Both the position numbers and the translations under genes were made by a program. Shown piece after piece: positions 1 to 14,686 of a DNA stretch of 14,891 bases; the stretch's first letter is position 1, and each line of letters begins with the position of its first letter. The notes beneath the pieces were generated by a model, which made no database searches, was not told the DNA's origin, and was given only the letters and a program-made list of their open reading frames with translations. The stretch spans positions 1-14,891 of the forward strand of contig JAJPZP010000076.1 in assembly GCA_021204285.1 (NCBI GenBank), given 5' to 3'. The DNA is from Lachnospiraceae bacterium (lineage in GTDB: Bacteria > Bacillota > Clostridia > Lachnospirales > Lachnospiraceae).

Positions 1-7
1 GTGTTAT

Positions 8-13
8 TATAAT
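8..13 (+). promoter_or_regulatory. -10 box of the hicAB promoter
   Basis: TATAAT lies 20 bases upstream of the hicA start and is followed by a strong GGAGGG ribosome binding site at 21-26. The matching -35 box would fall before the window, so only half of the promoter is visible. HicB usually represses its own operon from sites near here, but I see no clear operator. Confidence 0.4.
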
Positions 14-33
14 ATTGTCAGGAGGGAAAACAA

Positions 34-231
34 ATGAAAAGCTACTCATCAAGAGAAGTGATCAAGATACTTAAAGCGGATGGCTGGTATGAAGTGAATG
101 TTGTTGGTAGTCACCACCAATTCAAACATCCAACCAAAAAGAAGCGTGTTACTGTAAAACATCCTGACAAAGACATCCCACGCAAGACGCTGGACAGTAT
201 CGAAAGACAGTCGGGGCTAACATTCAGATAG
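34..231 (+). CDS. hicA: HicA family toxin (mRNA interferase)
   Basis: This is a 65-residue protein with the HicA pattern: an N-terminal serine/arginine helix, then G-S-H-H-Q-F at residues 25-30, then a lysine-rich strand ending V-K-H-P. HicA toxins have a double-stranded-RNA-binding-like fold and cut mRNA; the histidine after G-S (H27) is the expected catalytic residue. Length and motif are normal, so the toxin looks intact. The start is fixed by GGAGGG eight bases upstream. It stops with TAG at 229-231, 35 bases before hicB, so the pair is an operon. It lies in element B, the left intervening element in cotJC, where a toxin-antitoxin pair could select against loss of the element. The family call is confident; activity is inferred. 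Confidence 0.93.
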   Translation: MKSYSSREVIKILKADGWYEVNVVGSHHQFKHPTKKKRVTVKHPDKDIPRKTLDSIERQSGLTFR

Positions 232-266
232 CTCCGGCATCCAATATATATCATGGAGGTATCAAA

Positions 267-671
267 ATGAAAAAAGTTGAACGTTACTTCTACCCGGCAG
301 TATTCACTTATGAACCGAATCAGGAAATTGCCATTACCTTCCCCGATCTGGACTGTGCCACCAGCGGCGTAAATGATGATGATGCTCTCTTATCTGCCAG
401 AGAACTTCTTGGCTGCGTGATTTTCGGACTGGAAGAAGATGGAGAACCGATTCCTGCTCCCACTGCGCTCGCAGATGTGAAGCTGGAATCCAATGAGCGC
501 GTAGTGTTGGTCGATGTTTATATGCCTTCTGTACGTCTGGCACACGTTAATCGTTCTGTCAACCGTACTGTAACCCTCCCGGCATGGCTGAATGCCGCTG
601 CACTGGAAAGGAATATCAACTTCTCCCAGGTGTTGCAGGATGCCTTAAAAACACAGCTCCATCTGGGATAA
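267..671 (+). CDS. hicB: HicB family antitoxin
   Basis: This is a 134-residue protein directly downstream of hicA. Residues 1-70 show the HicB partial RNase-H fold: an aromatic Y-P-A-V-F strand, then I-T-F-P-D-L-D-C and the helix with A-R-E-L-L. The C-terminus (V-T-L-P-A-W-L-N followed by N-I-N-F-S-Q-V-L-Q-D-A-L) looks like a ribbon-helix-helix DNA-binding domain, which lets HicB repress its own operon. The protein should bind and neutralise HicA. The start has GGAGG about eight bases upstream and the gene ends with TAA just before a hairpin terminator at 678-721. It appears full length and functional. Confidence 0.93.
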   Translation: MKKVERYFYPAVFTYEPNQEIAITFPDLDCATSGVNDDDALLSARELLGCVIFGLEEDGEPIPAPTALADVKLESNERVVLVDVYMPSVRLAHVNRSVNRTVTLPAWLNAAALERNINFSQVLQDALKTQLHLG

Positions 672-677
672 CTGAAT

Positions 678-721
678 AAGAAATAGCGCCCCTGCTCTGG
701 TAAAGTAAGGCGCTATTTCTT
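678..721. terminator. Hairpin terminator after hicAB, possibly bidirectional
   Basis: A perfect 13-bp stem is formed by AAGAAATAGCGCC (678-690) and its complement (709-721), with an 18-base loop. It begins seven bases after the hicB stop. Both sides are followed by T-containing but interrupted tracts, so it could end hicAB transcripts on the plus strand and a leftward transcript from the promoter at 789-816. Confidence 0.7.
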
Positions 722-783
722 ATGGTTTAAAGCTTTATTCGCCGGGTCGGGTGACTCGCACTCACCTTCCGGCTGTCCTGTTA
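678..783 (-). ncRNA. Candidate small structured RNA between hicB and the recombinase
   Basis: No protein is evident here, but a near-consensus promoter (789-816, minus) points into the stretch and a strong hairpin closes it at 678-721, predicting an RNA of about 105 bases. Inside is a two-tier hairpin: outer arms GCCGG/CCGGC at 741-745 and 769-773, inner arms GGTGA/TCACC at 750-754 and 762-766. Beside it is a 10-bp palindrome, TAAAGCTTTA, at 728-737. I do not recognise the family. The hairpin could instead be a DNA site for a recombinase or for transfer. The candidate RNA is inferred from promoter, structure and terminator only. Confidence 0.3.
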
Positions 784-788
784 AGTAC

Positions 789-816
789 ATTATAGCAGGC
801 CCTACAGATTTGTCAA
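789..816 (-). promoter_or_regulatory. Strong vegetative promoter pointing leftward
   Basis: On the minus strand TTGACA (816-811), a 16-base spacer and TATAAT (794-789) with an extended TGC in front form the best sigma-A promoter in the window. It lies 34 bases upstream of the recombinase start but faces away from it. The predicted start near 782 leads only into the structured region and terminator at 678-774. Confidence 0.6.
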
Positions 817-849
817 AGATTTTTAACAGACAGACAGGAGGCAGGAATC

Positions 850-2433
850 GTGTTCGAGGACGTCACCTACAACTTCGGCTCCGGCCGCTATGCGATCTAC
901 CTCCGCAAGAGCCGGAAGGACATGGATCTGGAAGCCCGCGGCGAGGGTGAGACGCTGCAGCGCCACATGGAGATTCTGAAGGACCTGGCGCAGCGGATGC
1001 GCCTGAACGTGGTCCGCATCTATGCGGAGGTGGTCTCCGGCGAGTCGATCGAGGCGCGGCCGCAGATGCAGCGGCTCCTGAAGGACGTGGAGGCGGACCT
1101 CTACGACGGCGTGCTCGTGGTGGAAGTGGAGCGCCTGGCCAGGGGCGACACATCCGATCAGGGGCGCGTGGCCAAGACCTTCAAGTTCTCCGGCACGCTG
1201 ATCATCACCCCCGCCAAGACCTATGATCCCAACAATGAATATGACGAAGAGTATTTCGAGTTTGGCCTCTTCATGTCCCGCCGGGAGTACAAGACGATCC
1301 GGCGCCGCCTGAGCGCGGGCGCGGAGGCTTCCTGCAGGGAGGGAAAGTACACGGGGAACATTGCGCCCTATGGCTACGAGCGCTACAAGCTGAAGAAGGA
1401 AAAGGGCTGGTCCCTGCGCATCGTCCCCGAACAGGCCGCCGTGGTGCGCATGATCTTTGACATGTACGCCAACGGGCTGAACGGTATCCCGGTCGGCTAT
1501 GGCCGCATCGCAGAGGAGCTGAACCGGATCGGCACGCCTGCTCCTTCCGGCGGAAACTGGACAGCCTACGGCACGCAGAACATCCTCCGCAATCCGGTCT
1601 ATGCCGGATATATCAAGAATGGCCGCCGCAGGCAGGTGAAGCGCCTGGAGAACGGCAGGACGGTCGTCAGCCGCCCGGTCAACCACGACTGCAAGCTCTA
1701 CCAGGGACGGCACGAGGCGATCGTTTCGCAGGAGCTCTGGGACACGGTCAGCCGCCGCATGGCGTCGCGCCGGGCAGGCTCCTCCACGCGCGTGCGCCCG
1801 CAGCAGAACCCGCTCGCGGGCCTTGTCGTCTGCTCCCAGTGCGGCCGCATCATGCAGCGCAGGCCTTATCAGGACGGCTCGCCCGCGTCGCTGCTTTGTC
1901 CGACGAAGGGCTGCCCCACGGTCTCGAGCTTCCTCTCCCTTGTCGAGCAGCGCGTCCTGGATTCCCTCGAGGAGTGGCTTACCACCTATTCCCTGCCGGA
2001 CCCGGATGCAGAGCCGCAGAATGCGGAGCGCATCGCAATCCTTCAGGGAAACCTGGACACTTGCCAGGCGGAGCTGCAGGAAGCGCGGGAACAGATCGAG
2101 CGGCAGTATGATTTTCTGGAACGGGGAATCTATACCGAAGAGATGTTCTTTGAGCGGAATGCCCTGCTCCGGAAGCGGAGCGCCGAGCTGGAGGATCACC
2201 TGGCGGAGCTGCAGGAGGAACTGCGAAAAGAAACCGGGCGCGACGACGCCATCCGCCGCCTGCTCCCGAAGCTGACGACGATCCGCGACTCCTATTCCCA
2301 GATCGATGATCCCGCAGCGCGCAATGCCCTCCTGAAAGAAGTCGTCGATCACATCGAATACACAAAATCCGAGGACGGACGGCACGGAAATCCCGGACTT
2401 TTTTCCATCGAAATTTACCCCAAAATCGGGTAA
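850..2433 (+). CDS. Large serine recombinase of element B
   Basis: This 527-residue site-specific recombinase is probably the integrase/excisionase of the element that cuts cotJC at about 2535. The N-terminal resolvase domain starts Y-A-I-Y-L-R-K-S, with S21 as the expected nucleophile, and includes E-R-L-A-R-G near residue 96. The recombinase domain follows (from about residue 170, with N-P-V-Y-A-G-Y near 252). A zinc ribbon has Cys pairs at 328/331 and 350/355, and a long charged coiled coil occupies about 390-470. GTG 850 is chosen as start because AGGAGG ends eight bases upstream. Length and domain order are complete. The stop lies about 100 bases from the att junction. It is only distantly related to the recombinase at 2872. 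I see no sporulation-type promoter upstream. Confidence 0.93.
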   Translation: MFEDVTYNFGSGRYAIYLRKSRKDMDLEARGEGETLQRHMEILKDLAQRMRLNVVRIYAEVVSGESIEARPQMQRLLKDVEADLYDGVLVVEVERLARGDTSDQGRVAKTFKFSGTLIITPAKTYDPNNEYDEEYFEFGLFMSRREYKTIRRRLSAGAEASCREGKYTGNIAPYGYERYKLKKEKGWSLRIVPEQAAVVRMIFDMYANGLNGIPVGYGRIAEELNRIGTPAPSGGNWTAYGTQNILRNPVYAGYIKNGRRRQVKRLENGRTVVSRPVNHDCKLYQGRHEAIVSQELWDTVSRRMASRRAGSSTRVRPQQNPLAGLVVCSQCGRIMQRRPYQDGSPASLLCPTKGCPTVSSFLSLVEQRVLDSLEEWLTTYSLPDPDAEPQNAERIAILQGNLDTCQAELQEAREQIERQYDFLERGIYTEEMFFERNALLRKRSAELEDHLAELQEELRKETGRDDAIRRLLPKLTTIRDSYSQIDDPAARNALLKEVVDHIEYTKSEDGRHGNPGLFSIEIYPKIG

Positions 2434-2534
2434 ATATTATGTAAATCAAAAATTTTTCAAAACCGCTTTTCAAAAGTTCACTTTTCCTTGATTTTACAGG
2501 GAAAATTGACATTCTCTAAGGTCATGGGACCACG

Positions 2535-2644
2535 TCTTCCGTGCCGATATCTATCAGCACAGCCGCGCATTCCTTATAAGGCATTGTGTAGCGCTGCGAA
2601 AGGTAGCGCATGCTCGCACCCAGCTCCCCATCGGGACCTCCGAA
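2535..2644 (-). pseudogene. cotJC: cotJC, middle piece (codons 29 to about 65)
   Basis: The minus strand reads F-G-G-P-D-G-E-L-G-A-S-M-R-Y-L-S-Q-R-Y and continues to I-D-I-G-T-E-D, which is manganese-catalase/CotJC sequence. Joined to the first piece at the shared 11-bp repeat, it gives an uninterrupted product across I-S-Q-F-G-G-P-D-G-E-L-G. By family knowledge E35 (in G-E-L-G-A) is a manganese ligand, and the next ligand should be the second Glu of G-T-E-E-L-A-H. Here that codon is GAC and the homology stops, so the break lies inside or at a metal-ligand codon. The piece has no start of its own and is useless unless both elements are excised. I infer it is either an 'exon' restored during sporulation or a dead remnant. 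Confidence 0.88.
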
Positions 2645-2661
2645 TCGCGGCAGGTTATACA
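2624..2661. repeat. Left attachment junction of element A
   Basis: The 11-bp core GGACCTCCGAA at 2634-2644 also occurs in the same orientation at 6980-6990. To its left is cotJC; to its right, inside the element, is the arm GCGGCAGGTTATACA (2647-2661), the exact inverted copy of the arm at 6960-6974. The predicted crossover dinucleotide, at the centre of symmetry, is CC at 2637-2638. Confidence 0.85.
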
Positions 2662-2816
2662 CTGCCACCCATTTTCTTCCTCTGTCTTTCCAGTTCCCTT
2701 CGCATCTGCCGCAGCACCGCCTTTCGCTCCCGCTCCATGAGGCTCTCCCAGCTTCTCTCGCCCTGCTCCGTGGCAATGCGCGAGGGAAGCGCCGTCAATT
2801 TCCTCGATCTTCCCAT
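2655..2816 (-). CDS. Small charged protein, candidate recombination directionality factor
   Basis: This is a 53-residue ORF starting M-G-R-S-R-K-L and ending K-K-M-G-G-S-V. It has 15 Arg/Lys and seven Glu and is probably helical from about residue 22 onward. GGAGG ends four bases before the ATG. It is transcribed away from the recombinase gene, starts 55 bases from it, and its TAA falls inside the attachment-site arm (2647-2661). I do not recognise the family. Position between attP and the integrase, small size and charge fit a directionality factor such as SprB of SP-beta, which allows excision, but that role is inferred. It could also be a regulator or a chance ORF; the ribosome binding site argues against chance. 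Confidence 0.5.
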   Translation of the reverse strand: MGRSRKLTALPSRIATEQGERSWESLMERERKAVLRQMRRELERQRKKMGGSV

Positions 2817-2838
2817 ACTCCCTCCGTTTTTTTACAGT

Positions 2839-2866
2839 ATATGCCGCCACTTTCCCGCATAGATTA
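2839..2866 (+). promoter_or_regulatory. Possible sporulation sigma-E/sigma-K promoter of the element A recombinase
   Basis: ATATG (2839-2843), a 14-base spacer and CATAGATTA (2858-2866) resemble the sigma-E pattern. The -10 part also matches the sigma-K form CATA-N3-TA. The predicted start of transcription falls at or next to the ATG at 2872, and no ribosome binding site precedes that ATG, so the mRNA may be leaderless. Mother-cell expression would suit excision from a coat gene, but this rests on short motifs only. Confidence 0.35.
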
Positions 2867-2871
2867 AAGTC

Positions 2872-4032
2872 ATGAAAACCGCAGCCGCCTACATCCGCGT
2901 CTCCACCGAGGAGCAGCTCGAATTTTCCCCGGACAGCCAGCTGAAACGCATCGAGGAATACGCCCGGGCACACGACATGCGCCTGCCGGACGAATACATC
3001 TATCTGGACGAGGGCTTCAGCGGCAGAAAGGCGCAGAACCACCCCGCTTTTCTGCGCATGATCGCCGAGGCGAAGCGAAAGCCCCGCCCCTTTGACGTGA
3101 TCCTGCTCTGGAAATTTTCACGCTTCGCGCGGAACCGTCAGGACAGCATCCTCTACAAATCCATGCTGCGCCGGGAGTGCGGCATCGACGTGCTCTCCAT
3201 CACAGAACAGCTCTCGGGCGACCCGACCTCCATCCTGATCGAGGCGCTGCTCGAGGCCATGGACGAGTACTACTCTATCAACCTCGCGGAGGAAGTGCGC
3301 CGCGGCATGAACGAAAAATTCTCACGGGGCGGCGTCGTCTCCGTCCCGCCCTTCGGCTACCGTATGGAAAACGGACATTTCGCCCCTGACCCTGCGCGCA
3401 CTTCTGTCGTATCCATGATCTATGAGGATTTTCTAAACGGAAGCTCCTGCCGCGCGATCGCGCGGAAACTGAATGAAAGGGACATACGGACCACGCGCGG
3501 GAATCCCTTCGAGCCCCGCGCCGTCCGCTATATCCTGAGCAATCCGGTCTATACCGGAAAGCTGCGCCGAAACGTGCAGGGCGAGATGAATCTCGTGCCG
3601 GGCGGCCATCAGCCGCTGATTTCAGAAAGCACTTTTCAGAAAGTGCAGGCAAAACTCTCAGAATCAGGCGCCACACACATTCCACTGCCCGTACCCTCCG
3701 CCTTCCTGTTCCAGGGACTTGTGCGCTGCAGCTGCTGCGGCGGCGCACTCACCAGGAGTTCCCGAACCGGCGCTCTTCAGTGCTGCCGCTACGCGAAGGG
3801 AACCTGCCCACAGAGCCACTACCTCTCCATCCAGGAGCTGGAAGCGACCACGCTCCACACTGTCAAACAGGATCTGGCCGACACGGGCGAGGCTTTCGCA
3901 CTTCTCTACGCATCCGTCCCGGAAATCCGGTAGAAAAACGAACTGCTCCGGAGCCTGATCGAGAAGATCGTGTTCCGGAGCAGCGACAAGAATATCTGTA
4001 TCTGTTATCGCACTTTCTTTCTCGCGAGATAG
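2872..4032 (+). CDS. Large serine recombinase of element A (in-frame TAG near the C-terminus)
   Basis: The resolvase domain opens M-K-T-A-A-A-Y-I-R-V-S-T-E-E-Q with S11 as nucleophile. F-S-R-F-A-R-N lies near residue 83, the recombinase domain covers about 150-280 (N-P-V-Y-T-G-K near 225), and a zinc ribbon begins C286-S-C-C289. A TAG stop at 3931-3933 ends the open frame at 353 residues. The same frame then continues K-N-E-L-L-R-S-L-I-E-K-I-V-F-R and stops with TAG at 4030-4032. That tail is typical of the family C-terminus, so the TAG interrupts a gene of 386 codons. The full frame overlaps the convergent trkH end by 28 bases. The first 353 residues may or may not be active alone. No ribosome binding site precedes the ATG. 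It is the likely enzyme acting on the 2634/6980 sites. Confidence 0.88.
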
Positions 4033-5450
4033 ACGGCGGGAATCAACATCGGGAAGATCTCGAGCCTGCCAGCCAGCATATCAAAGCAGAACACCAGCTT
4101 CGACAAGTTGGAAAATGCAGCAAAGTTCTGCGTCGCGCCGACGCCGTTCAGACCGGGACCGATATTGTTGATCGTCGCGGCCATGGCGGTAAAGTTCGTG
4201 ATTCCATCGAAATTATCGAGCGAGATGATCAGCAGCGAGGTCACAAAAATGGCGATATAGGTGACCAGGAAAACGTTGATCGAGCGCAGCACCTCATGCT
4301 CCACCGTCTTCCCTTCAAAGCGGATCTTCCGCACATTGCGCGGATGGATGATAAAGTCCAGCTCCTTCAGCACCGTTTTCGCCATGATTTTCACGCGCAT
4401 CACCTTAATGCCGCCGCCGGTGCTGCCCGCGCAGGCTCCGATGAACATCAGCAGCACCAGGATCGTCCGCGACAGCTCCGGCCACTGGTCAAAATCCGCG
4501 GTCGTGAAGCCGGTCGTCGTGATGATCGAGGCCACCTGGAAGGCCGCATGGCGCAGGGTCACGCCCACATTCTGGTAGATATGGTAAATATTGACCACGA
4601 TCACGAGGACGCTCACGCCGATAATCCCGAGATAGGTCCGCAGCTCCTCGCTGCGCAGGCCGTCCCTGAACTTCTTCATATAGAAGAGGAAATAGACGTT
4701 GAAATTCACGCCGAACAGGATCATGAAAACAGTGAGTATCCACTGCGTCACGGCGTTATAATCCGCCGCGCTGCTGTTCAGCACACCGAAACCGCCGGTT
4801 CCCGCCGTGGCAAAGGCCAGGTTAATCGAGTCAAAAACCGGGCAGCCGGAAACAAGCAGACAGACCATCTCGACAACAGTCAGAAACATATAGATCAGAT
4901 ACAGAAGCTTCGCCGAGCCGCGCACCTTTGGCACCAGCTTGCCGACGGACGGTCCGGGGCTCTCCGCCTTCATCAGATACATGCTGGACGCACCTGTCGA
5001 GGGCAATACCGCCAGCACGAAGACGAGAATTCCCATGCCACCGATCCAGTGCGAAAAGCTTCTCCACATCAGCACCGCGCGCGGAGCCGACTCTACATCC
5101 GCCATGACCGTGGAACCGGTCGTCGTGAAGCCGGAGATGATCTCAAAGAGCGCATCCACCGGATTGGGAAAGGAACCGCTGAGGTAAAGTGCCAGCGCGC
5201 CAAAGAAACTCATGACGATCCAGCAAAGTGCCACACTCGTGTAGCCTTCCACAGAGAAAATCGTCGTGTTCTCCGGTTTTTTCCGACCCCGCATCAGCCA
5301 GCCGCATACAATACAGATCAGCGATGTCGCCAGAAAAGCCCACAGACACTTTTCCCGGTAAATCAGGGCGGTCAGTGCCGGAAGTAGCAAAAACAAAGCC
5401 TCCAGCAGCACCACACTTCCGATGATATAGCGTACCATTTTCCTGTTCAT
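4005..5450 (-). CDS. trkH: TrkH/KtrB-family potassium transporter, membrane subunit
   Basis: This 481-residue polytopic membrane protein forms the K+ translocation pore of the Trk system. All four pore-loop signatures are visible: T-T-T-G-S-T, A-T-A-G-T-G-G-F-G, T-T-T-G-F-T-T and N-N-I-G-P-G-L, each with the filter glycine, plus H-W-I-G-G-M-G-I after the first loop. The gene starts 15 bases after the trkA stop, with GGGAG ahead of the ATG, so the two form an operon. It is cargo of element A, an unusual place for a housekeeping-type ion transporter. If the element is excised in the mother cell, this copy is lost there. The 3' end overlaps the read-through end of the recombinase gene by 28 bases. 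Confidence 0.95.
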   Translation of the reverse strand: MNRKMVRYIIGSVVLLEALFLLLPALTALIYREKCLWAFLATSLICIVCGWLMRGRKKPENTTIFSVEGYTSVALCWIVMSFFGALALYLSGSFPNPVDALFEIISGFTTTGSTVMADVESAPRAVLMWRSFSHWIGGMGILVFVLAVLPSTGASSMYLMKAESPGPSVGKLVPKVRGSAKLLYLIYMFLTVVEMVCLLVSGCPVFDSINLAFATAGTGGFGVLNSSAADYNAVTQWILTVFMILFGVNFNVYFLFYMKKFRDGLRSEELRTYLGIIGVSVLVIVVNIYHIYQNVGVTLRHAAFQVASIITTTGFTTADFDQWPELSRTILVLLMFIGACAGSTGGGIKVMRVKIMAKTVLKELDFIIHPRNVRKIRFEGKTVEHEVLRSINVFLVTYIAIFVTSLLIISLDNFDGITNFTAMAATINNIGPGLNGVGATQNFAAFSNLSKLVFCFDMLAGRLEIFPMLIPAVYLARKKVR

Positions 5451-5465
5451 CGCCGCTCTCCCGCC

Positions 5466-6842
5466 TTATCCCGCCGCTCGCGTTTTTTTCAGAATATCCC
5501 GCAGATCCTTCAGCTCGCCGGTGCTCGTCGTGATGACAATGACGGAATCACCGACCCGCAGGCAGTCCTGCCCTTTTGGAATAATGGTCTTTCTCTTCCG
5601 GTAGATCGCGCAGACCAGCAGGTCGTCCCTCAGCTTCAGCTCCTGCAGCGGTATGTCCGTCAGCTCGCTCTGTTTGTGAATAATGAACTCCAGCGCCTCC
5701 GCTTTTCCATCCACAAGCCGGTACAGCGACTGCACATTGCTGTCGATCGAATTCTGCATCGCGCGCACATACTGGATGATCGTCTCAGCGGTGATATGTT
5801 TCGGATAAATCAGACTTCCGATGTCGAGAGATCCAATGATTGCGTGATAGGTATCCTGATCAACCTTGGTGATAATCTTTGCCCTGCTCATATGCTTGGC
5901 ATAGAGGGACATCATGACATTCTCCTCGTCCTGATTGGTCAGGGCCGCAAAGCCCTCCACCCGCGCCAGCCCCTCCTCTGCGAGAAGCGCCTCATCGCGC
6001 CCGTCTCCGTAGATAATCGTAGCCTTCGGCAGCAGATCGCTCAAAAGCTCGCAGCTCGCGCGGTCCTTCTCCACGATTTTCACCTGAATACCCATCTCGA
6101 TCAGGCGCTTTGCCAGATAGAAGGCAACCTTGCCCCCGCCGATCAGCATGGTATTCTTTACCTGGTTGGTCTCGATGCCGATCATGCGGAAAAAGCGGCT
6201 CGCGTTCGCAGGCGAAGCCACAATGGAAATCGTATCGCCCTCCATAAGTTCCATATCTCCATCCGGGATCAGCGTCTGTCCCTGCCGCTCCACGATGCAG
6301 ATCAGAACCTCACAACGGGAGAGTTCCTCCAGGTTGCGGATCTTCTTCGCGCAGAGCGGATTGTCCGGCTGTAAGTGAAAAGGCAGCAGCTCAATCCGGC
6401 CATTCGCGAAGGTGTCAATGTCAATCGCAGACGGGAAGCGAAACAGTCTTGAGATCTCCATCGCAGCTGTCAGTTCCGGGTTGATGACCATTGAAAGGCC
6501 GAGATCTTCCTTAAAGTGATGAATTTCCTGATGATAGACCGGATTGCGCACGCGTGCGATCGTCTGACAGCCGCCGGACTTTTTCGCGATCAGACAACAG
6601 AGCAGATTCACCTCATCCGCATTCGTCACCGCGATCAGCAGGTCTGCCTTATCAATGCCCGCCTCCATCTGAATACTCAGGCTGGCGGCATTGCCAATCA
6701 CACCTCTGGCATCTGCCGTATGAACGACACGCTGCACTGCCTCTGAACTCTCATCAATCACCGTCACGTCGTGTTCGTCCTTACAGAGCTGCTCCGCAAG
6801 CACCTGTCCAACCTGCCCACAACCTGCGATAATAATATTCAT
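5466..6842 (-). CDS. trkA: TrkA potassium-uptake regulatory subunit
   Basis: This 458-residue cytoplasmic protein gates TrkH by binding NAD(H) or related nucleotides. It has two tandem RCK modules: the first opens M-N-I-I-I-A-G-C-G-Q-V-G with D-E at the end of the second strand, and the second has M-L-I-G-G-G-K-V-A near residue 230. Each is followed by a TrkA-C domain; the second ends near residue 450. The open frame reaches to 6917, but ATG 6842 is chosen because GGAGG lies eight bases upstream and the Rossmann fold begins at that residue. Length fits the family. It is the first gene of trkAH, with its own promoter at 6883-6911 inside element A. Confidence 0.95.
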   Translation of the reverse strand: MNIIIAGCGQVGQVLAEQLCKDEHDVTVIDESSEAVQRVVHTADARGVIGNAASLSIQMEAGIDKADLLIAVTNADEVNLLCCLIAKKSGGCQTIARVRNPVYHQEIHHFKEDLGLSMVINPELTAAMEISRLFRFPSAIDIDTFANGRIELLPFHLQPDNPLCAKKIRNLEELSRCEVLICIVERQGQTLIPDGDMELMEGDTISIVASPANASRFFRMIGIETNQVKNTMLIGGGKVAFYLAKRLIEMGIQVKIVEKDRASCELLSDLLPKATIIYGDGRDEALLAEEGLARVEGFAALTNQDEENVMMSLYAKHMSRAKIITKVDQDTYHAIIGSLDIGSLIYPKHITAETIIQYVRAMQNSIDSNVQSLYRLVDGKAEALEFIIHKQSELTDIPLQELKLRDDLLVCAIYRKRKTIIPKGQDCLRVGDSVIVITTSTGELKDLRDILKKTRAAG

Positions 6843-6882
6843 CCTTCGCCTCCATCTCTCCCCGCTTTTCAAAGATAACCTA

Positions 6883-6911
6883 ACTATAGCACCGCCGTCC
6901 AAAAACTGCAA
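6883..6911 (-). promoter_or_regulatory. Vegetative promoter of trkAH
   Basis: On the minus strand TTGCAG (6911-6906), a 17-base spacer and an extended -10, TGC-TATAGT (box at 6888-6883), lie about 40 bases upstream of the trkA ATG. It lies inside element A, so trkAH need not depend on the cotJ promoter. The -35 match is weak. Confidence 0.45.
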
Positions 6912-6959
6912 TCCCAAACAGCCACGTCCAGTCGAAGTAAAGCCACATTTTCCTGTATA

Positions 6960-7000
6960 TGTATAACCTGCCGCAGTCCGGACCTCCGAACTGGGAGATG
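6960..7000. repeat. Right attachment junction of element A
   Basis: The arm TGTATAACCTGCCGC (6960-6974) is the exact inverted copy of 2647-2661. Five bases later comes the shared core GGACCTCCGAA (6980-6990), followed by cotJC sequence. The predicted crossover dinucleotide is CC at 6983-6984. Confidence 0.85.
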
Positions 7001-7074
7001 ATCAGCTTTGCCATCTCCGGATTGGGATTGGTAATGTTTACGGGATATTCCAGTCTCTTTTCATAATTCCACAT
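6980..7074 (-). pseudogene. cotJC: cotJC, first piece (codons 1-32)
   Basis: The minus strand starts M-W-N-Y-E-K-R-L-E-Y-P-V-N-I and reads to S-Q-F-G-G-P, the N-terminus of CotJC, a manganese-catalase-like spore coat protein made in the mother cell. After the 11-bp core the frame runs into element A and stops at 6880-6882, so the uninterrupted product would be a 64-residue chimera with 31 foreign residues. The start is strong: AAGGAGGTG lies about nine bases upstream, and the ATG directly follows the cotJB TGA. A maintained start and ribosome binding site fit a gene still used after excision. Middle piece: 2535-2644. The last piece lies outside the window. Confidence 0.9.
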
Positions 7075-7347
7075 TCAGCAGGCACCTCCTTCCCAGGGCC
7101 ACGGCTGGCTTACCCAGTCCCATTTCCCATCCATGCCGGTCGCACAGTCGATATTCAGCGGCCCGTAGAGTGCCGCATAGTCTTTCAGTGCCTGTTCGCG
7201 GAGCATTTTATTTTCCTCAAAATAGGCCAGGGCCGCGGGATCCTCCGGATGCGTGTCGAGATAGAGGTTTGACTCCACGACCGCAAAGCTGACCATATCC
7301 ACCCAGTCCAGCATCTGTTTCCTGCTCGGTTTACTGTTCTGTGCCAT
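7075..7347 (-). CDS. cotJB: CotJB spore coat assembly protein
   Basis: This is a 90-residue protein with the CotJB pattern: M-L-D-W-V-D-M-V-S-F-A-V-V-E followed by L-Y-L-D-T-H-P, then Y-A-A-L-Y-G-P-L and a C-terminal W-D-W-V-S-Q-P-W-P-W-E. CotJB is a small soluble partner needed to place CotJA and CotJC in the inner coat. The ATG immediately follows the cotJA TAA and the TGA is immediately followed by the cotJC ATG, so the three genes are tightly coupled. The gene is intact although its partner cotJC is split. Confidence 0.94.
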   Translation of the reverse strand: MAQNSKPSRKQMLDWVDMVSFAVVESNLYLDTHPEDPAALAYFEENKMLREQALKDYAALYGPLNIDCATGMDGKWDWVSQPWPWEGGAC

Positions 7348-7548
7348 TTACCTGCACCCTCCTCTCACGCCGAGAAACGGCTTAAAAAGCTCCGGAAAAA
7401 TTGTGCCGCGGAGGAGGCCTTTCTCCAGATCATAGACTGTATGCCAGTGCTGCCAGGGGACATAATCCATGGCGAGCGGATACTCTTCCCTGCTCATACG
7501 CATGGCCATACCGCCACGATTCGCGGGACATCCCTTAAATTGTTCCAT
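7348..7548 (-). CDS. cotJA: CotJA spore coat-associated protein
   Basis: This is a 66-residue protein containing P-L-A-M-D-Y-V-P-W-Q-H-W and then L-E-K-G-L-L-R-G-T-I-F-P-E-L-F-K-P-F, the usual core of CotJA. It is first in the cotJABC operon, whose products form part of the spore coat and are made in the mother cell. A GGTG motif lies close before the ATG; other starts are possible within the first 16 residues (M14, M16). The stop TAA abuts the cotJB start. Intact. Confidence 0.92.
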   Translation of the reverse strand: MEQFKGCPANRGGMAMRMSREEYPLAMDYVPWQHWHTVYDLEKGLLRGTIFPELFKPFLGVRGGCR

Positions 7549-7584
7549 TTTTCACCAGAATCCTTTCTTTTTCTTCTTTCCCTT

Positions 7585-7612
7585 TATCTTATGTAAGCGC
7601 AAAAAAAAGGTG
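7585..7612 (-). promoter_or_regulatory. Sporulation (sigma-K-like) promoter of cotJABC
   Basis: On the minus strand CACC (7612-7609), 15 bases, then CATAAGATA (7593-7585) fit the sigma-K form mACm-N16-CATA-N3-TA with one base less spacing. It lies about 40 bases upstream of cotJA. In Bacillus cotJ is sigma-E dependent; the -10 also partly fits sigma-E, but I see no good sigma-E -35. The -35 lies in the stem of the upstream terminator. Confidence 0.4.
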
Positions 7613-7635
7613 ATAGAAATGGTTCTACCACCTTT
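7601..7635 (-). terminator. Rho-independent terminator of the rhomboid-like gene
   Basis: On the minus strand AAAGGTGGTAGAA (7635-7623) pairs with TTCTATCACCTTT (7618-7606) as a 13-bp stem with one G-T pair and a four-base loop, running into eight T at 7608-7601. It ends the upstream transcript just ahead of the cotJ promoter. Confidence 0.9.
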
Positions 7636-7649
7636 TGAGCCTGGTATCA

Positions 7650-8519
7650 TCACTTCCGATGCTCGTGTGTGAAAAGATGATCCTGACAATATTCATAGTT
7701 GCCGACGCATTTGGAGCAGAAGCGGAATTCGAGATCATCGCCGTCTGCCTCCGTACGGCCGCAGATGGCGCAGCGATGATGCCCCTGGCTCTGCGCGGCT
7801 GTGCGTACCTGCTTCGTGTAGGTTCTGCGGCGCTTCGCCTGCTTCGGCGAGAACTTCTCCCTTCGGCTGCTCAGGAAAAAGATGATAAAATTCAACAGCG
7901 ATACGAGCGCCGCCACGCTGTTCGCCCGGTAGGCGAAGATGCCCGCATTCAGCAGTGAAAACCAAAGCGAACTTCCAACCGGTACAAAAAATCCTGCCAG
8001 GATCGTCAGCCCATAATAGACGCCCTCAATGATTCCAAGCCACTTTGCCTTGATCGGAATGATAAAGAAGAGCATAAACTGCACATCCGGAAACAGCGCC
8101 GCGTACACAAGGAAAAGCGACAGATTCAGGTAAAAGGAGCCAAGCGACAGGTTCACGCCCATAATCAGATAAATCAGAAGGCAGGCGATCACATGCAGCA
8201 GCATCCCCGAGAAGAAATACAGGTTGAAGCGGAAGGCGCCCCACTGGTACTCCAGCGCCCGCCCGATCAGGTAGTAAAGATAGAGGGCGAACAGGATGAA
8301 CAGAATACTCGACGAGGGTGGCTGAATGATAAAGGTAAAAATGCGCCAGATCTGCCCGTGCAGAATTGCCTTCGCGTCAAGCGCCAGCCACGTACTGTAG
8401 AGATTCGGCGCGAAAATATCGATTACAAAGCCCGCCGCATACAGCATGATAATATAATTCATCAGGTTGTGAATCGCGTATTTCCCGAACCTGCGCTCCA
8501 TCCTGTCAAGCCACTTCAT
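7650..8519 (-). CDS. Rhomboid-like membrane protein with C-terminal zinc ribbon
   Basis: This is a 289-residue protein. The first 215 residues contain about six hydrophobic spans in a rhomboid-like arrangement (an initial short span, L-H-G-Q-I-W-R-I-F-T-F, then several helices). A basic linker (R-R-E-K-F-S-P-K-Q) leads to a cysteine-rich tail with C-A-I-C near residue 249, F-C-S-K-C near 270 and a further Cys/His cluster (Y-C-Q-D-H). I do not find the G-x-S-G of active rhomboid proteases, so it is probably a non-proteolytic relative. The substrate is unknown. The start has AAAGGAGG ten bases upstream. It is transcribed alone, between its own promoter (8554-8582) and a terminator (7601-7635). 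Confidence 0.8.
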   Translation of the reverse strand: MKWLDRMERRFGKYAIHNLMNYIIMLYAAGFVIDIFAPNLYSTWLALDAKAILHGQIWRIFTFIIQPPSSSILFILFALYLYYLIGRALEYQWGAFRFNLYFFSGMLLHVIACLLIYLIMGVNLSLGSFYLNLSLFLVYAALFPDVQFMLFFIIPIKAKWLGIIEGVYYGLTILAGFFVPVGSSLWFSLLNAGIFAYRANSVAALVSLLNFIIFFLSSRREKFSPKQAKRRRTYTKQVRTAAQSQGHHRCAICGRTEADGDDLEFRFCSKCVGNYEYCQDHLFTHEHRK

Positions 8520-8553
8520 CGCAAAAAATCCTCCTTTAGATCAGTTAATTTAC

Positions 8554-8582
8554 AGTATACGCCCGACGCGCCAAAAAAACAA
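8554..8582 (-). promoter_or_regulatory. Promoter of the rhomboid-like gene
   Basis: On the minus strand TTGTTT (8582-8577), a 17-base spacer and TATACT (8559-8554) lie about 35 bases ahead of the ATG at 8519. The -35 is a partial match. Confidence 0.45.
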
Positions 8583-8615
8583 TGCCAGGGGCGGTCTTTC
8601 TTAACGGAAACTTTA

Positions 8616-8644
8616 TAGACTTCACCTGCCTTCATCCATATAAT
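8616..8644 (+). promoter_or_regulatory. Promoter of the activase/dehydratase gene
   Basis: TAGACT (8616-8621), a 17-base spacer and consensus TATAAT (8639-8644) predict a start near 8651. That leaves a leader of about 60 bases containing a tiny ORF (8693-8716) before the main ATG at 8713. Confidence 0.55.
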
Positions 8645-8692
8645 TTATCATGGTTTACGCTGAAAATACGAAAGATGTGAGGTGAAAGGCGG

Positions 8693-8716
8693 ATGAAGCC
8701 GCCGAAAATCATATGA
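8693..8716 (+). CDS. Seven-codon leader peptide overlapping the activase start
   Basis: ATG at 8693 has GAGGTG nine bases upstream and encodes M-K-P-P-K-I-I, ending in TGA that overlaps the activase ATG as ATGA. The activase ATG itself has no good ribosome binding site and no alternative start back to an in-frame stop at 8683-8685. Translation of the main gene is therefore probably coupled to this short ORF. This is inferred from spacing. Confidence 0.4.
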   Translation: MKPPKII

Positions 8717-9867
8717 ATCCATGTTATCGACTGGGAATCGACATCGGTTCCACCACCGTAAAAATCGCGGTGCTCGATGAGGAAAACCATTTTCTGTTCT
8801 CCGACTATGAGCGCCATTTTGCAAATATCCATGAGACGCTGGCAGACCTTCTGGAGCGCGCCACTGAAAAGCTCGGGCCGATCGATATCTGGCCCGTCAT
8901 CACGGGCTCGGGCGGGCTGACGCTCGCACAGTATCTGGACGTTCCCTGCGTACAGGAGGTCGTCGCAGTCGCGGAGGCGCTCGAAACCTACGCGCCGAAG
9001 ACCGACGTGGCGATCGAGCTCGGCGGCGAAGACGCGAAGATCATCTATTTCGAGGGCGGCAACGTCGAGCAGCGTATGAACGGCATCTGCGCCGGAGGGA
9101 CCGGCTCCTTCATCGACCAGATGGCCTCCCTTCTGCAGACTGACGCGAGCGGGCTCAATGAGTATGCAAAAAATTACAAGGCTCTCTACTCGATCGCGGC
9201 GCGCTGCGGCGTCTTCGCAAAGACGGATATCCAGCCCCTGATCAACGAGGGCGCGACGAAGGAAGACCTGGCGGCGTCCATCTTCCAGGCGGTCGTCAAT
9301 CAGACGATCAGCGGCCTGGCCTGCGGTAAACCGATCCGCGGGCACGTCGCCTTTCTCGGCGGTCCGCTGCACTTCCTCTCAGAACTGCGCGAGAGCTTCA
9401 TCCGCACGCTGAAGCTCGATGAGGAGCACACGATCATCCCGAAATTTTCCCATCTCTTCGCGGCTTCCGGCTCGGCTCTCCTCTCAAAGAGAGAGAACGC
9501 CATCCCCGCGAAGGACATGATCGACCGGCTACACGCGAAGATCGAGATCGCCTTCGAGATTGGCCGCCTTGATCCGCTCTTTAAAGATCAGTCCGAGTTC
9601 GAGGCCTTCGAGAAGCGACATGCGCAGGCCACTGTACAGAAGCGGGACCTTGCGAGTTATGAAGGCGACTGCTTCCTCGGCATCGACGCCGGCTCGACGA
9701 CAACGAAGATCGCGCTGGTCGCGGACGACGGCTCACTGCTCTACTCTTTCTATCACAACAACGATGGAAGCACCCTACATATCACACTGGAAGCGCTGAA
9801 AGACCTGTTCGACCATCTTCCCGAGAAAGCGCATATCGTCCGCTCCTGCTCTACCGGCTACGGCTAG
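8713..9867 (+). CDS. 2-hydroxyacyl-CoA dehydratase activase fusion, N-terminal part up to an in-frame TAG
   Basis: These 384 residues are the first segment of a 1,414-codon gene ending at 12957. Residues 7-330 hold one complete ATPase module of the HgdC/BadF type: G-I-D-I-G-S-T-T-V-K at 8-17, G-G-E-D-A-K-I, C126 in G-I-C-A-G-G-T-G and C165 in A-R-C-G-V-F. These cysteines are spaced like the [4Fe-4S] ligands of HgdC. A second module begins G-I-D-A-G-S-T-T-T-K at 323 and is cut at S-T-G-Y-G by TAG 9865-9867. Such proteins use ATP to inject an electron that starts dehydration of 2-hydroxyacyl-CoA or related substrates; the substrate here is unknown. The family normally has Glu at the TAG position (G-Y-G-E), so this is probably a GAG-to-TAG change, a sequence error, or a suppressed stop. 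Confidence 0.88.
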   Translation: MNPCYRLGIDIGSTTVKIAVLDEENHFLFSDYERHFANIHETLADLLERATEKLGPIDIWPVITGSGGLTLAQYLDVPCVQEVVAVAEALETYAPKTDVAIELGGEDAKIIYFEGGNVEQRMNGICAGGTGSFIDQMASLLQTDASGLNEYAKNYKALYSIAARCGVFAKTDIQPLINEGATKEDLAASIFQAVVNQTISGLACGKPIRGHVAFLGGPLHFLSELRESFIRTLKLDEEHTIIPKFSHLFAASGSALLSKRENAIPAKDMIDRLHAKIEIAFEIGRLDPLFKDQSEFEAFEKRHAQATVQKRDLASYEGDCFLGIDAGSTTTKIALVADDGSLLYSFYHNNDGSTLHITLEALKDLFDHLPEKAHIVRSCSTGYG

Positions 9868-9873
9868 GCGCTC

Positions 9874-12800
9874 GTGAAGGCCGCGCTGATGCTCGACGAG
9901 GGCGAGGTCGAGACGATTTCCCACTACTACGCGGCGTCCTTCTTTGACCCGGATGTAGACTGCATCCTCGACATCGGCGGGCAGGACATGAAGTGCATCC
10001 GTATCAAAAATCAGACCGTTGACAACGTACAGCTCAACGAGGCCTGCTCGTCCGGCTGCGGCTCCTTCATCGAGACCTTTGCGAAATCGCTGAACCTCTC
10101 GATCCAGGATTTCGCGCAGGCGGCGCTCTTTGCGCAGCACCCGATTGACCTGGGTACGCGCTGCACGGTATTCATGAACTCACGCGTCAAACAGGCGCAG
10201 AAGGAGGGCGCGGGCGTCGATGACATCTCCGCCGGCCTCGCCTACTCGGTCATCAAGAACGCGCTTTTCAAGGTTATCAAGGTCTCGGACGCCTCCTCGC
10301 TCGGCAGTCACATCGTCGTGCAGGGCGGCACCTTCTACAACAACGCAGTGCTGCGCAGTCTCGAGACGATCGCGGAGTGTGAGGTCGTGCGCCCCGACAT
10401 CGCCGGTATCATGGGTGCTTTCGGCGCGGCGCTGATTGCGCGCGAGCGCTATGAAGGGCAGACGACGACGATGCTGAGCCGCGAGGAGATGGAGGCGCTC
10501 GAATACTCGACCTCCATGACAAAATGCCGCGGCTGCACGAACAACTGCCGCCTGACCATCAACAAATTCTCCGGCGGACGCCACTACATCTCCGGCAACC
10601 GCTGTGAGCGCGGGCTCGGCCAGAAGAAAAAGGAAAATCCTGCACCGAACCTCTTCTCCTACAAGCTGAAACGGCTCTTCAGCTACGAGCCGCTCCCGGA
10701 AGCGGAGGCTGTGCACGGCCTCGTCGGCATTCCGCGCGTGCTGAATATGTATGAGAACTACCCCTTCTGGTTCACCTTCTTTACGAAGCTGAAGTACCGG
10801 GTGGTGCTCTCCCCCGACTCGACCCACGAGATCTACGAGCAGGGCATTGAGTCGATTCCCAGCGAATCCGAGTGTTATCCGGCCAAGCTGGCGCACGGCC
10901 ATATTATGTGGCTATTGCAGCACAACATTCCGTTCATCTTCTACCCCTGCGTGCCCTACGAGCGGCAGGAGTTTGCGGACGCGAACAACCATTACAACTG
11001 CCCGATCGTCACCTCCTACGCGGAAAATATCAAGAACAACGTGGAGGAGCTGAAAAGCGAACAGGTCGATTTCCGCAACCCCTTCCTGAGCTTTGAGTCG
11101 CTCGAGATATTGACAAAACGGCTGATCGAAGAGTTTGAGGGCGAGCAGGGTATGACGGCGGCGGAGATCACGGAAGCCGCGAAGGCGGCCTGGGAAGAAC
11201 TGCGTCAGGAGCGCCTTGACATCACAAAAAAAGGCGAGGAGACCCTGAAATGGATGGAGGAGCACCACGCGCACGGCATTGTGCTGGCCGGTCGCCCCTA
11301 CCATGTAGACAATGAGATTAACCACGGTATTCCCGAGCTGATAAACGGCTACGGACTCGCCGTGCTGACTGAGGACAGCGTCTCACATCTGCTCTCGGGC
11401 GAACGCCCCTTGCGTGTTATGGACCAGTGGATGTACCACTCCCGCCTCTATGCGGCCGCGGACTTTGTAAAGACGCGCGATGACCTCGACCTGATTCAGC
11501 TGAACTCCTTCGGTTGCGGGCTCGACGCTGTGACGACCGACCAGGTGAACGAGATTTTAAGCAATTCAGGAAAAATCTACACCTGCCTCAAAATCGACGA
11601 GGTCAGCAACCTCGGCGCGGCGCGCATCCGCGTGCGCTCGCTGCTCTCAGCCATCCGCGTGCGCGAAAAGAAGCAGGAAAAACGCTGCATCGTACCCTCA
11701 TCCTATGAGCGCGTGCTCTTTACCGAGGAGATGCGGAAAACCTACACCATTCTCTGCCCCGACATGTCGCCGATCCACTTCAATCTGCTGCAGCCGGCCT
11801 TCCGCTCCTGCGGCTACAAGATCGACGTACTGCCGCGGGCCGGCCGGAAAGCCGTAGATCTCGGCCTGAAATATGTCAACAACGACGCCTGCTATCCCTC
11901 ACTGATCGTCGTCGGACAGATCATGGAAGCTGTCCTCTCCGGTCGCTACGACCTTACGAAGACCGCCATCCTGATCACCCAGACCGGAGGCGGCTGCCGC
12001 GCGTCGAACTATATCGGCTTTATCCGCCGCGCGCTGGAAAACGCGGGTTATCCGGATGTTCCGGTCATTTCCGTGAACTTAAGCGGACTCGAGAAGAACC
12101 CGGGCTTCAAGTATACGCCGGAAATGCTGATCAAAGCGCTCTATGGGCTGATCTTTGGCGATCTGTTTATGAAGGTGCTCTACCACACCCGCCCCTACGA
12201 GATCGTACCGGGCGAGGCAAACCGGGTCTATGAGCAGCTGAATGAGCGCTGCAGCCGGTTCCTGATGCAGAAACGTCCATCCTGGAGGGGCTTCAAGCGC
12301 CTGTGCAGTGAGATCGTCGAGGAATTCGACCACATCCTCGTGACGAATGAGCAGAAGCCGCGCGTCGGTGTCGTTGGGGAGATCCTCGTGAAGTTCTCGC
12401 CGTCCGCGAACAACGGCCTCGTGGATCTTCTCGAGGCGGAGGGCGCGGAGGCGGTCGTGCCGGATCTCATGGACTTCCTGCTCTACTGTTTCAAGAATAC
12501 GGAGTTCAAGGCGCAGTACCTGGGCAAGAAAAAAAGCACTGCCCGCATGGGGCGGCTTGGCATCCGGGCGCTCGAATTTTTCCGCGCTCCGGCAAACAAA
12601 GCGCTGGCAAAAAGCCAACACTTCTATCCTGCCTCAAATATCGACCATATGGCCGATATGGCAAAGGAGATCGTCTCCCTCGGCAACCAGACCGGCGAGG
12701 GCTGGTTTCTGACCGGCGAGATGCTCGAGCTGATCGAGAATGATACGCCGAACATCGTCTGCACGCAGCCCTTTGCCTGCCTGCCGAACCACATTGTCGG

Positions 12801-12957
12801 CAAGGGCGTCATCAAGGAGCTGCGCCGCCGTAACCCGGAGGCAAACATCGTTGCGATCGACTACGACCCCGGCGCGAGCGAGGTCAACCAGCTGAACCGC
12901 ATCAAGCTGATGCTGAGCACAGCCTGGAAGAACCTGGAACGGCGGAAAGAAGCCTGA
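9874..12957 (+). CDS. 2-hydroxyacyl-CoA dehydratase activase fusion, C-terminal part after the TAG
   Basis: The same frame continues beyond TAG 9865; GTG 9874 is the first possible restart but has no convincing ribosome binding site. Numbering along the full gene, it completes the second ATPase module (D-I-G-G-Q-D-M-K; C445 and C484, spaced 39 like C126/C165). A cysteine cluster follows (C605, C608, C612, C631). Next come a DUF2229-type domain starting V-G-I-P-R-V-L-N and an HgdB-like domain with G-R-P-Y-H and T-Q-T-G-G-G-C1095-R. The whole resembles the long single-chain activase/dehydratase proteins of about 1,400 residues common in Clostridia. The part after the TAG has no further stop and good conservation, so loss of function is recent, apparent only, or absent. 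It ends with TGA before the hairpin at 12988-13017. Confidence 0.88.
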
Positions 12958-12987
12958 CAAAGCAAAACACCACACACTGACAGCAGG

Positions 12988-13020
12988 AGAACCATCCAGG
13001 CCTTCTTGGATGGTTCTTCT
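12988..13020 (+). terminator. Hairpin after the activase gene
   Basis: AGAACCATCCA (12988-12998) pairs perfectly with 13007-13017 around an eight-base loop and is followed by a short, interrupted T tract. It lies 30 bases after the activase stop and just before the oxidoreductase ribosome binding site. Because the T tract is poor, it may be leaky, or act as an attenuator for the next gene. Confidence 0.6.
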
Positions 13021-13037
13021 GTAGAATGGAGATTATG

Positions 13038-13985
13038 ATGAAATTAAGATATGGAATCCTCAGTACCTCCTCCATCACCCCGCGCTTCATCGCCGCCGTC
13101 CGCGACACCGACAGCAGCGAGGTGCTGGCGCTCGCCTCCCGTAACCTCGATCACGCCAGGGAAAAAGCACGGCTCTGGAACGTACCACGCGCCTACGGCA
13201 GCTACGAGGAACTGCTCGCCGATCCGGACATTGATATCGTCTATGTCTCGATGGTGAACAGCCTGCACTATCAATATGCGAAGATGGCACTGGAGAGCGG
13301 ACACCACGTTCTCTGCGAGAAGCCCTGCACGCTGTCCGCGGAGGACTCCCATGATTTATTTACGCTGGCGCGGGAAAAGGGGAAATTTTTCATGGAGGCC
13401 GAGAAGGTCGTCTTTCTCCCCGTCATGCGGGAAATCAGACAGATGATCGCGGAAGGCGTCCTCGGGAAGGTTACGATGGCGGATTTCTCCAGCTCCTTCG
13501 ACCCTGGCTACAATTCCTGGTTCTTCAGTGAGGAGCTGGGCGGAGGCCCTCTCTACTCGAACGGCATCTACTGCCTGCAGTTATTACAGTATCTTTTCGG
13601 CAGCAAAGTCACGAGAGCGCAGGGGCTCTGCACGCGCAGCGCTACAGGCGTGGAAGATCAGTTCACCATGAGCTTTCTTCTGGAAAACGGACTGCTCGCG
13701 ACAAATAAAACAAGCACCCGCGCTGAGACTTCCCACTCCGGCTGGCTCTACGGCGAAAAAGCACGCGTTGAGATCCCATCCTACTGGAAAGCGCGTGAGG
13801 CGACGATTCATTTTAAGGACGATACGATAAAGACCATCTCCTGTCCCTGCGAGCACGAGCTCGTCTACGAGGTGGAGCACGTTGCGGACTGTATCAAAAA
13901 AGGGCTCATCGAGAGCCCTGTCATGACAGAAGAGATGACCGTATCGGCTATCCTGGTCCTGCGTTCTGTCAAAGAATCCTTTTAA
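13038..13985 (+). CDS. Gfo/Idh/MocA-family oxidoreductase
   Basis: This is a 315-residue NAD(P)-dependent sugar or cyclitol dehydrogenase-like protein. The Rossmann domain begins L-R-Y-G-I-L-S-T-S-S-I, where the usual G-x-G-x-x-G is replaced by a serine/threonine-rich loop. It continues through D-I-V-Y-V-S-M-V-N-S-L-H and C-E-K-P-C, containing the family E-K-P. The C-terminal substrate domain has G-G-G-P-L-Y-S-N-G-I-Y near residue 165, where the family often has G-G-x-x-x-D-x-G-x-H; the usual catalytic Asp and His are replaced here. The substrate is therefore unclear. The open frame starts at 13026, but ATG 13038 is preferred because GGAG lies six bases upstream and the fold begins there. It converges on ung with a 10-base gap. 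Confidence 0.85.
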   Translation: MKLRYGILSTSSITPRFIAAVRDTDSSEVLALASRNLDHAREKARLWNVPRAYGSYEELLADPDIDIVYVSMVNSLHYQYAKMALESGHHVLCEKPCTLSAEDSHDLFTLAREKGKFFMEAEKVVFLPVMREIRQMIAEGVLGKVTMADFSSSFDPGYNSWFFSEELGGGPLYSNGIYCLQLLQYLFGSKVTRAQGLCTRSATGVEDQFTMSFLLENGLLATNKTSTRAETSHSGWLYGEKARVEIPSYWKAREATIHFKDDTIKTISCPCEHELVYEVEHVADCIKKGLIESPVMTEEMTVSAILVLRSVKESF

Positions 13986-13995
13986 ATTTTTTATT

Positions 13996-14670: not shown

Positions 14671-14686
14671 ATTCCGTTCCTCCCTC

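Follow-up and report, generated by a model that had tools for sequence, protein, structure and literature searches.

Four pieces of one spore-coat gene: recombinase elements at three conserved sites split cotJC in a gut Lachnospiraceae bacterium and may be excised during sporulation

How can a spore-coat gene be expressed when its codons are scattered among mobile elements? This question is raised by cotJC, whose product CotJC belongs to the Mn_catalase family, in a gut bacterium deposited as Lachnospiraceae bacterium (assembly GCA_021204285.1, labelled G000 in our comparisons). The window analyzed here is an entire contig of this assembly, C252 (14,891 nucleotides; JAJPZP010000076.1, positions 1 to 14,891, forward strand). 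A Pfam Mn_catalase search of the whole draft genome (272 contigs, 2,188,130 bases, 88.5% complete) returned four matches, all on the minus strand and in order, namely C252:7074-6976 (model positions 1-33), C252:2650-2534 (27-66), C255:11566-11336 (62-151) and C255:5538-5386 (147-197). We consider it likely, on sequence evidence, that cotJC is split in four by three large-serine-recombinase elements and is made whole when all three are excised from the DNA of the mother cell during sporulation. Two of these elements are seen whole, while the third is likely one prophage whose ends lie on separate contigs.

An initial annotation, made from the window alone, had recognized the CotJC N-terminus and codons 29 to about 65, had placed the remainder of the gene outside the window, and had proposed that two independent recombinase elements cut the gene. 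Both window pieces are borne out by the family search: piece 1 (6980..7074, minus strand) covers codons 1 to ~32 through the site-1 core and is directly preceded by cotJB (7075..7347, minus strand; Pfam CotJB, E 3e-27) and, upstream of the latter, cotJA (7348..7548, minus strand; Pfam CotJA, E 9e-18), and piece 2 (2535..2644, minus strand) covers codons ~29 to 65. The remainder was located on C255, with an additional break between its two parts. The independence of the elements stands, but their number was underestimated, since the gene is interrupted three times and lies in four parts. A second, intact cotJC, which that annotation had named among the observations that would speak against its proposal, was not found by the family search in this 88.5% complete genome.

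Joined at their cores, the four pieces yield a 206-residue CotJC without internal stop, which can be aligned gaplessly with the CotJC of G012, a member of the same genus in which the gene is intact (79.4% identity over 204 positions). The C-terminal part, predicted to start with ELAH, reads NELAHLEIV on C255 and gives EELAH once rejoined, and it follows from the sequence that both elements of the window must leave for CotJC to be produced, as had been claimed. The same joining was surveyed in 34 genomes with 46 junctions, three of which lacked a piece (one of two junctions in G016, and those of G027 and G032), leaving 43 junctions in 32 genomes. Attachment (att) cores were chosen by length, score and core size, a rule in which inverted repeats play no part. 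Rejoining in frame at a shared core was obtained for 42 of the 43 junctions, each join restoring the conserved motif GG[PA][DN]GE, [GA]TEELAH or AAEQKA; for the G084 junction, no candidate satisfied the length rule. Among the 42 is G094, where both pieces stop at contig ends so that no element is visible. The joined score exceeded the sum of the separate pieces at 34 junctions, and at the remaining eight the unjoined pieces either overlap or extend their match a little past the break. Because a 2-base core makes an in-frame join easy by chance, the stronger evidence is that of the restored motifs and of the arms: attP-like inverted repeats of at least 9 bp occur at 19 of the 42 junctions vs 1 of 1038 mismatched controls, in which arms were paired across sites. 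Breaks of this kind are also present, and rejoin, in chromosomes assembled on single contigs (G298, G330, G388 and G404).

The split is widespread. A relatives sample comprised 98 genomes (G000 plus 97 relatives, of which many belong to its genus), and a CotJC match is present in 75 of them. As counted from the resulting table, cotJC is broken at one or more of the three sites in 33 of these 75, namely 14 of 17 genus members and 19 genomes outside the genus, and both pieces of at least one break lie on one contig in 21 of the 33. This count excludes G032 and G094, in which the contigs stop at the break, and the N-terminal piece of G006 was found only in the locus scan of recombinase relatives described below. 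A three-way split with all four pieces was seen in G000 and in G075, which belongs to a different family; G016 and G414 retain three of the four pieces. The family sample comprised 396 Lachnospiraceae genomes, 258 of them with a CotJC match. Seventy-four genomes without a strong full-length match were re-searched by eye, and in 64 of them at least two pieces abut at these sites; the remaining ten have single pieces, intact copies or paralogues only. Together with ten genomes resolved in the relatives sample, this gives a split cotJC in at least 74 of the 258 CotJC-positive genomes, which outside the re-search include genomes with a full-length copy, mostly taken as intact on the strength of that copy, seven genomes whose single match is very weak, and G456 (one match, 4e-40). 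Both pieces of at least one break share a contig in 45 of the 74; contig ends in the remaining ones are mostly unchecked, and the N-terminal piece of G207 ends at a contig end. In the uncultivated virus genome UViG 2593339269_000002, pieces 2 and 3 lie on one stretch with breaks at all three sites. With identical breakpoints in different families and in chromosomes assembled on one contig, the splitting is far from chance. A candidate case of two alternative C-terminal pieces in G112 was dropped, as the two do not differ in sequence and one of them is close to the end of a contig; they lie 3.5 kb apart at 2664-3086 and 6204-6626 of locus L388 (G112:C68), and probably reflect an assembly duplication.

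Where do the breaks fall in the protein? Alignment to solved manganese catalases, 1jku included, places them at GGPDGE (E35), IGTEELAH (E65/H68) and AAEQKA (E138), residues that we take to be metal ligands. In the 24 intact-length CotJC proteins that formed the basis of the profile (one of which, L021, is a divergent paralogue), these blocks have mean conservation values of 0.91, 0.95 and 0.85 vs 0.69 overall, indicating that the recombinases target highly conserved codons.

Each interruption of the window contains a recombinase gene, as had been annotated: int2 of site 1 (2872..3933, plus strand) and int1 of site 2 (850..2433, plus strand) both encode large serine recombinases with Resolvase and Recombinase domains. 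In int2 and in int3, the enzyme of site 3, these two domains and a zinc ribbon all score above cut-off; the zinc ribbon of int1, at 23.2 bits, is below the 25.3-bit cut-off. When 37 recombinases were labelled by insertion position, a quick tree method separated three groups with two label changes, the minimum, and none of 200 label shuffles gave a value as low. Branch support was 98 for site 1 and 100 for site 3. All site-2 rows together received a support of only 17, low because the G046 enzyme forms a very long branch, and the ten other site-2 rows without it received 100. This G046 recombinase (L071, 3174-4814) is unlike the other site-2 enzymes, its best identity being 27%, to int3, and is perhaps a further lineage acting on the same target. 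For this analysis two of 39 recombinase open reading frames (ORFs) were dropped for being shorter than 250 residues, each of them a part of the broken int2 frame of G011, and L088 (G084) was manually relabelled from site 1 to site 2, where the CotJC search places its break (69/61).

An int2 alignment scan confirmed at least 489 int2 relatives in named genomes. A cotJC fragment accompanies the recombinase in 74 of the best 80 loci, which come from Lachnospiraceae as well as from records that bear the names Ruminococcus and Oscillospiraceae, and 27 of the 80 show both element ends, spanning 1.8-10.7 kb. In viral contigs, a cotJC fragment accompanies 16 of 80 int1-like, 6 of 47 int3-like and 19 of 80 int2-like loci, a low share that is probably due to trimmed contig ends. 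The expected site is included in 15 of the 16, all six and 16 of the 19, respectively, and the four exceptional loci look like alignments overrunning the break. In Lachnoclostridium sp. An196, the site-1 element carries trkAH and adhE. Three other site-1 elements were also noted. That of Cuneatibacter sp. NSJ-177 (L126, 9344-11146) measures 1.8 kb and has the recombinase (384 codons) as its sole recognizable gene, a minimal DNA intron; that of Faecalicatena contorta ET52 (L161, 9951-12615) combines a shortened recombinase (273 codons) with a sulfate-permease (SulP) gene; and the 2.6 kb element of Marvinbryantia formatexigens isolate S23_Bin3 (L142, 6724-9332) carries the recombinase and an Amidase_3-SH3 lysin-like gene.

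The site-1 element of the window, element A (2645..6979, ~4.35 kb), lies wholly within it and includes a candidate directionality factor, the recombinase, trkH and trkA. Its core TTCGGAGGTCC is shared by piece 1 (6980..6990, minus strand) and piece 2 (2634..2644, minus strand), and its attP-like arms at 6960..6974 and 2647..2661 (GCGGCAGGTTATACA) are exact 15 bp inverted-repeat partners. The trkA gene (5466..6917, minus strand; TrkA_N and TrkA_C) is a proposed trapped host gene, and trkH (4005..5450, minus strand; Pfam TrkH), which encodes a potassium transporter, is the sole match of G000 at E 1e-10.

The provenance of these genes is suggested by relatives. In G012, the intact cotJC is directly followed by trkA, trkH and adhE (AdhE domains), and trkA and trkH also come after the C-terminal cotJC piece of G027, a genome from another genus. 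Split genus members have the order cotJC-N, trkA, trkH, (adhE), int2, cotJC-C, except that int2 instead adjoins cotJC-N in G007 and G014; the element gene order is a circular permutation of that of G012. One trkH match (E 1e-10) is present in each of 15 of the 17 genus genomes, with none in G004 and G008, and trkH lies inside the site-1 element in all 14 genus members split at this site. Nine genomes have one full-length adhE match each, the copy of G003 is fragmented, and several genomes also have half-length relatives. The full-length adhE is inside the element in seven (G002, G005, G006, G007, G009, G014 and G015) and elsewhere in G012, downstream of cotJC, and in G008, which has no cotJC match. 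Downstream of cotJC, the flanks of split genomes differ from that of G012 over the stretches compared (up to ~12 kb). On this synteny, the trk genes appear to be host genes trapped by the site-1 element.

Element B, at site 2, occupies 1..2534 of the window as one prophage end, with int1 and a hicA-hicB-like pair (34..671, plus strand; HicA by Pfam, the second gene by a HicB-like PHROG, with Pfam HicB below its cut-off). Its other end would lie at C255 ~11570-14107, where an r1t-type holin and a GH25-LysM endolysin lead up to cotJC piece 3. The core, GA (2535..2536, minus strand), is inside the codon of predicted ligand E65. Around it the two ends have in common an exact 15-bp inverted repeat, with one attP-like arm at 2513..2527 and its partner on C255 beside piece 3; they are likely one prophage with an unassembled middle. 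Element C, at site 3, measures ~5.8 kb on C255, has the core GCAGCAGA and carries int3, Fic, HxlR, two flavin mononucleotide-reductase-like genes and a beta-eliminating-lyase-like ORF. The latter (threonine-aldolase-like; L005, C255 10493-11235) adjoins piece 3 and appears truncated or frameshifted in G000.

Is a gene so divided still in use? The ratio of nonsynonymous to synonymous substitution rates (dN/dS) of cotJC is 0.018-0.176 in all 15 pairs among G000, G001, G010, G011, G013 and G016 (57-182 shared codons). Pooled over six close split genomes, the corresponding ratio of nonsynonymous to synonymous differences (pN/pS) is 0.07-0.15 for each of the four pieces. The cotJC pieces are under purifying selection, which would not be expected of a gene that is never rejoined. 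Among the genes of element A, dN/dS is 0.13-0.19 for int2 (five genomes), 0.14-0.44 for the small ORF and 0.02-0.06 for trkH.

Signals for timing were sought upstream of the recombinases using the sigma-E consensus. A match, ATA-N16-CATAGATT (2839..2865, plus strand), stands before int2 and is the only one in the window; the pattern ATA-N16-CATANN[AT]T starts 33 bases before int2 in six of six close genomes. With looser spacing, a similar motif lies ~187 bases before int3 in three of five genomes. This sigma-E-like motif is a lead that int2 may be timed to the mother cell. No ribosome-binding site is visible for int2 and the -10 of the motif stops a few bases before the ATG (window 2839-2872), so that a leaderless message is possible. 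Sigma-70 and terminator scans gave values near the shuffled background (5 vs 3.0 and 7 vs 5.0, respectively) and are unused as evidence. Divergent from int2 lies a conserved 53-codon ORF (2655..2816, minus strand), the candidate recombination directionality factor. Its profile matches 22 of the 80 named loci with E below 1e-3, seven of them from profile-building genomes; the best other relatives (L130, L117, L125 and L131) are below 1e-12, and the orientation relative to int2 is always the same. A 70-residue relative in G005 matches phrog_26314 (function unknown; 9e-6), and the ORF of the window itself gave no match to PHROG profiles. The SpoIVA ATPase was found in G000, in two contig pieces, and in 15 of 16 genus relatives, though not in G010, and G000 may be a spore former. 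A table in PMC3416734 lists cotJC as a member of the sigma-E regulon.

In the mechanism that we propose, each recombinase, together with a directionality factor (at site 1, the 53-codon ORF), would excise its own element, and the sigma-E-like motif would set excision at site 1 to the mother cell. Production of CotJC would then require three independent cuts. The site-1 element would have trapped the neighbouring trkA-trkH, and adhE too in other genus members, so that the germline would lose these genes together with element A, a loss that the doomed mother cell could afford. Purifying selection, in-frame rejoining and the sigma-E-like motif at one recombinase point indirectly to an exit of the elements in the mother cell. 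We give an even chance to the fuller picture of a triple lock, in which three orthogonal recombinase lineages would each hold one metal-ligand codon block, and in which the site-1 element would have swallowed the sole trkAH of the host (with adhE in sister species), thereby becoming indispensable to the germline and being discarded by the mother cell alone.

Several observations weigh against this account. Neither an excised junction nor a circular form was observed in the material analyzed, which consisted of assembled genomes and viral contigs. The int2 of the window ends at a TAG (3931-3933) 33 residues short of the C-terminus of close relatives, and the lost part includes K355, L359, I366 and F368, each at least 90% conserved. 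The int2 reading frame is also disrupted in G011. Given these two cases, excision at site 1 may be failing or impaired in some lineages, although the stop in the window may alternatively be an assembly error. The sigma-E-like motif is found in eight of 80 upstream regions of the int2 family, four of them from close kin, with 0.9% in background windows, and is absent before int1 (0 of 3 genes) and before cotJA. The 53-codon ORF is a candidate directionality factor by position and size alone. As for trapping, trkA follows cotJC in one of 30 intact-type loci (G012), plus G027. None of the other 29 has trkA in its flanks (~1.5 kb at most), so that the adjacency is not general and the claim of an ancestral neighbour draws on two genomes. 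Lastly, element B is placed across two contigs by inference, and the inner arms of site 3 show no repeat in G000 (4 bp). To these points is added that, in the parts of PMC3533761 and PMC11222575 dealing with it, the catalase activity of CotJC seems unneeded for coat assembly in the species tested.

This last point would also suit a different explanation, in which cotJC serves as a safe integration harbour, where phages and their remnants, using site-specific integrases, occupy conserved codons of a gene that is dispensable and silent during vegetative growth, and leave only upon induction, with no developmental rejoining. The holin and endolysin make element B prophage-like, the target blocks are indeed highly conserved codons, the int2 of the window is shortened, and the small element of L142 carries a lysin-like gene. 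However, in close genomes for which only split copies were found, every piece has kept its reading frame and is strongly constrained by purifying selection, which is unexpected for a permanently broken gene, and elements far below phage size persist, as in the 27 of 80 named loci with both ends (1.8-10.7 kb). We therefore regard a mere harbour as unlikely. The in-frame stop of the window's int2 and the disruption of int2 in G011 could alternatively signal that cotJC is dead in the G000 lineage and that its pieces are decaying. This is very improbable given a dN/dS of 0.08-0.15 between the cotJC of G000 and those of five close relatives, and a rejoined gene without internal stop. An origin of the split in faulty assembly or binning is strongly disfavoured, and is the least probable of these explanations. 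The assembly of G000 does consist of 272 contigs with pieces 3 and 4 on another contig than the window, and the breaks of G032 and G094 fall at contig ends, but named records of independent origin and chromosomes that form a single contig have identical breakpoints, and all three sites are broken on one contig of UViG 2593339269_000002.

Excision in the mother cell, the reading that we favour, has precedents. In Bacillus subtilis and Clostridioides difficile, sigK, a sporulation gene of the mother cell, is likewise interrupted by a large serine recombinase element with att sites, skin. Its excision in C. difficile is set off by a directionality factor of 72 residues that is controlled by sigma-E and SpoIIID, as described in sections of PMC5025042. 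Traits of this kind are shared by cotJC, where the elements lie inside a mother-cell sporulation gene, bring their own recombinase and have att cores permitting precise in-frame rejoining. The skin system differs in consisting of one element in a sigma-factor gene, whereas cotJC is a coat-enzyme gene with three sites and three recombinase groups, its excision being inferred. Phage or non-phage elements also interrupt other sporulation genes (SP-beta in spsM, gin in gerE, yin in yabG, vfbin in spoVFB and vrin in spoVR; PMC4191935, PMC5595907, PMC10747680), but the accounts given in the relevant parts of these papers have one element per gene, and neither cotJC nor captured neighbouring host genes. 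Several elements in one gene, of a type leaving in a terminally differentiated cell, are described for heterocyst genes, such as the four elements of Rivularia nifD (in part of PMC4874684). This trait of several independent elements in one gene is shared by the cotJC of G000, G075 and UViG 2593339269_000002. The heterocyst cases are, however, cyanobacterial and use xis recombinases, while the elements in cotJC, a coat gene of endospores, use serine recombinases, and each site has a group of its own. The C. difficile prophage phi027 adjoins a CotJC-like gene and is described, in the pertinent parts of PMC11222575 and PMC12122855, as adjacent to it, without splitting it.

A report of a split cotJC, or of any sporulation gene with several elements, was not found in the open literature searched; subscription journals and preprints were outside its scope, and an earlier report of the former is possible. 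The main text of a survey of large serine recombinases (PMC10083194) contains neither 'catalase' nor 'spore coat', its supplementary target lists being outside the scope. If the rejoining is true, programmed DNA removal would be far commoner in spore formers than the few known genes indicate. The cotJC system supplies three recombinase groups with natural target sites, together with single-gene minimal elements. The trapped trkAH-adhE suggests a route by which a selfish insert may become undeletable, which bears on the persistence of such elements.

Beyond cotJA, positions 7650-12957 of the window contain upstream neighbours common to G003, G012 and G014, namely a membrane-protein ORF without Pfam match and a large ORF that, by eye, is 2-hydroxyglutaryl-CoA dehydratase activator-like.

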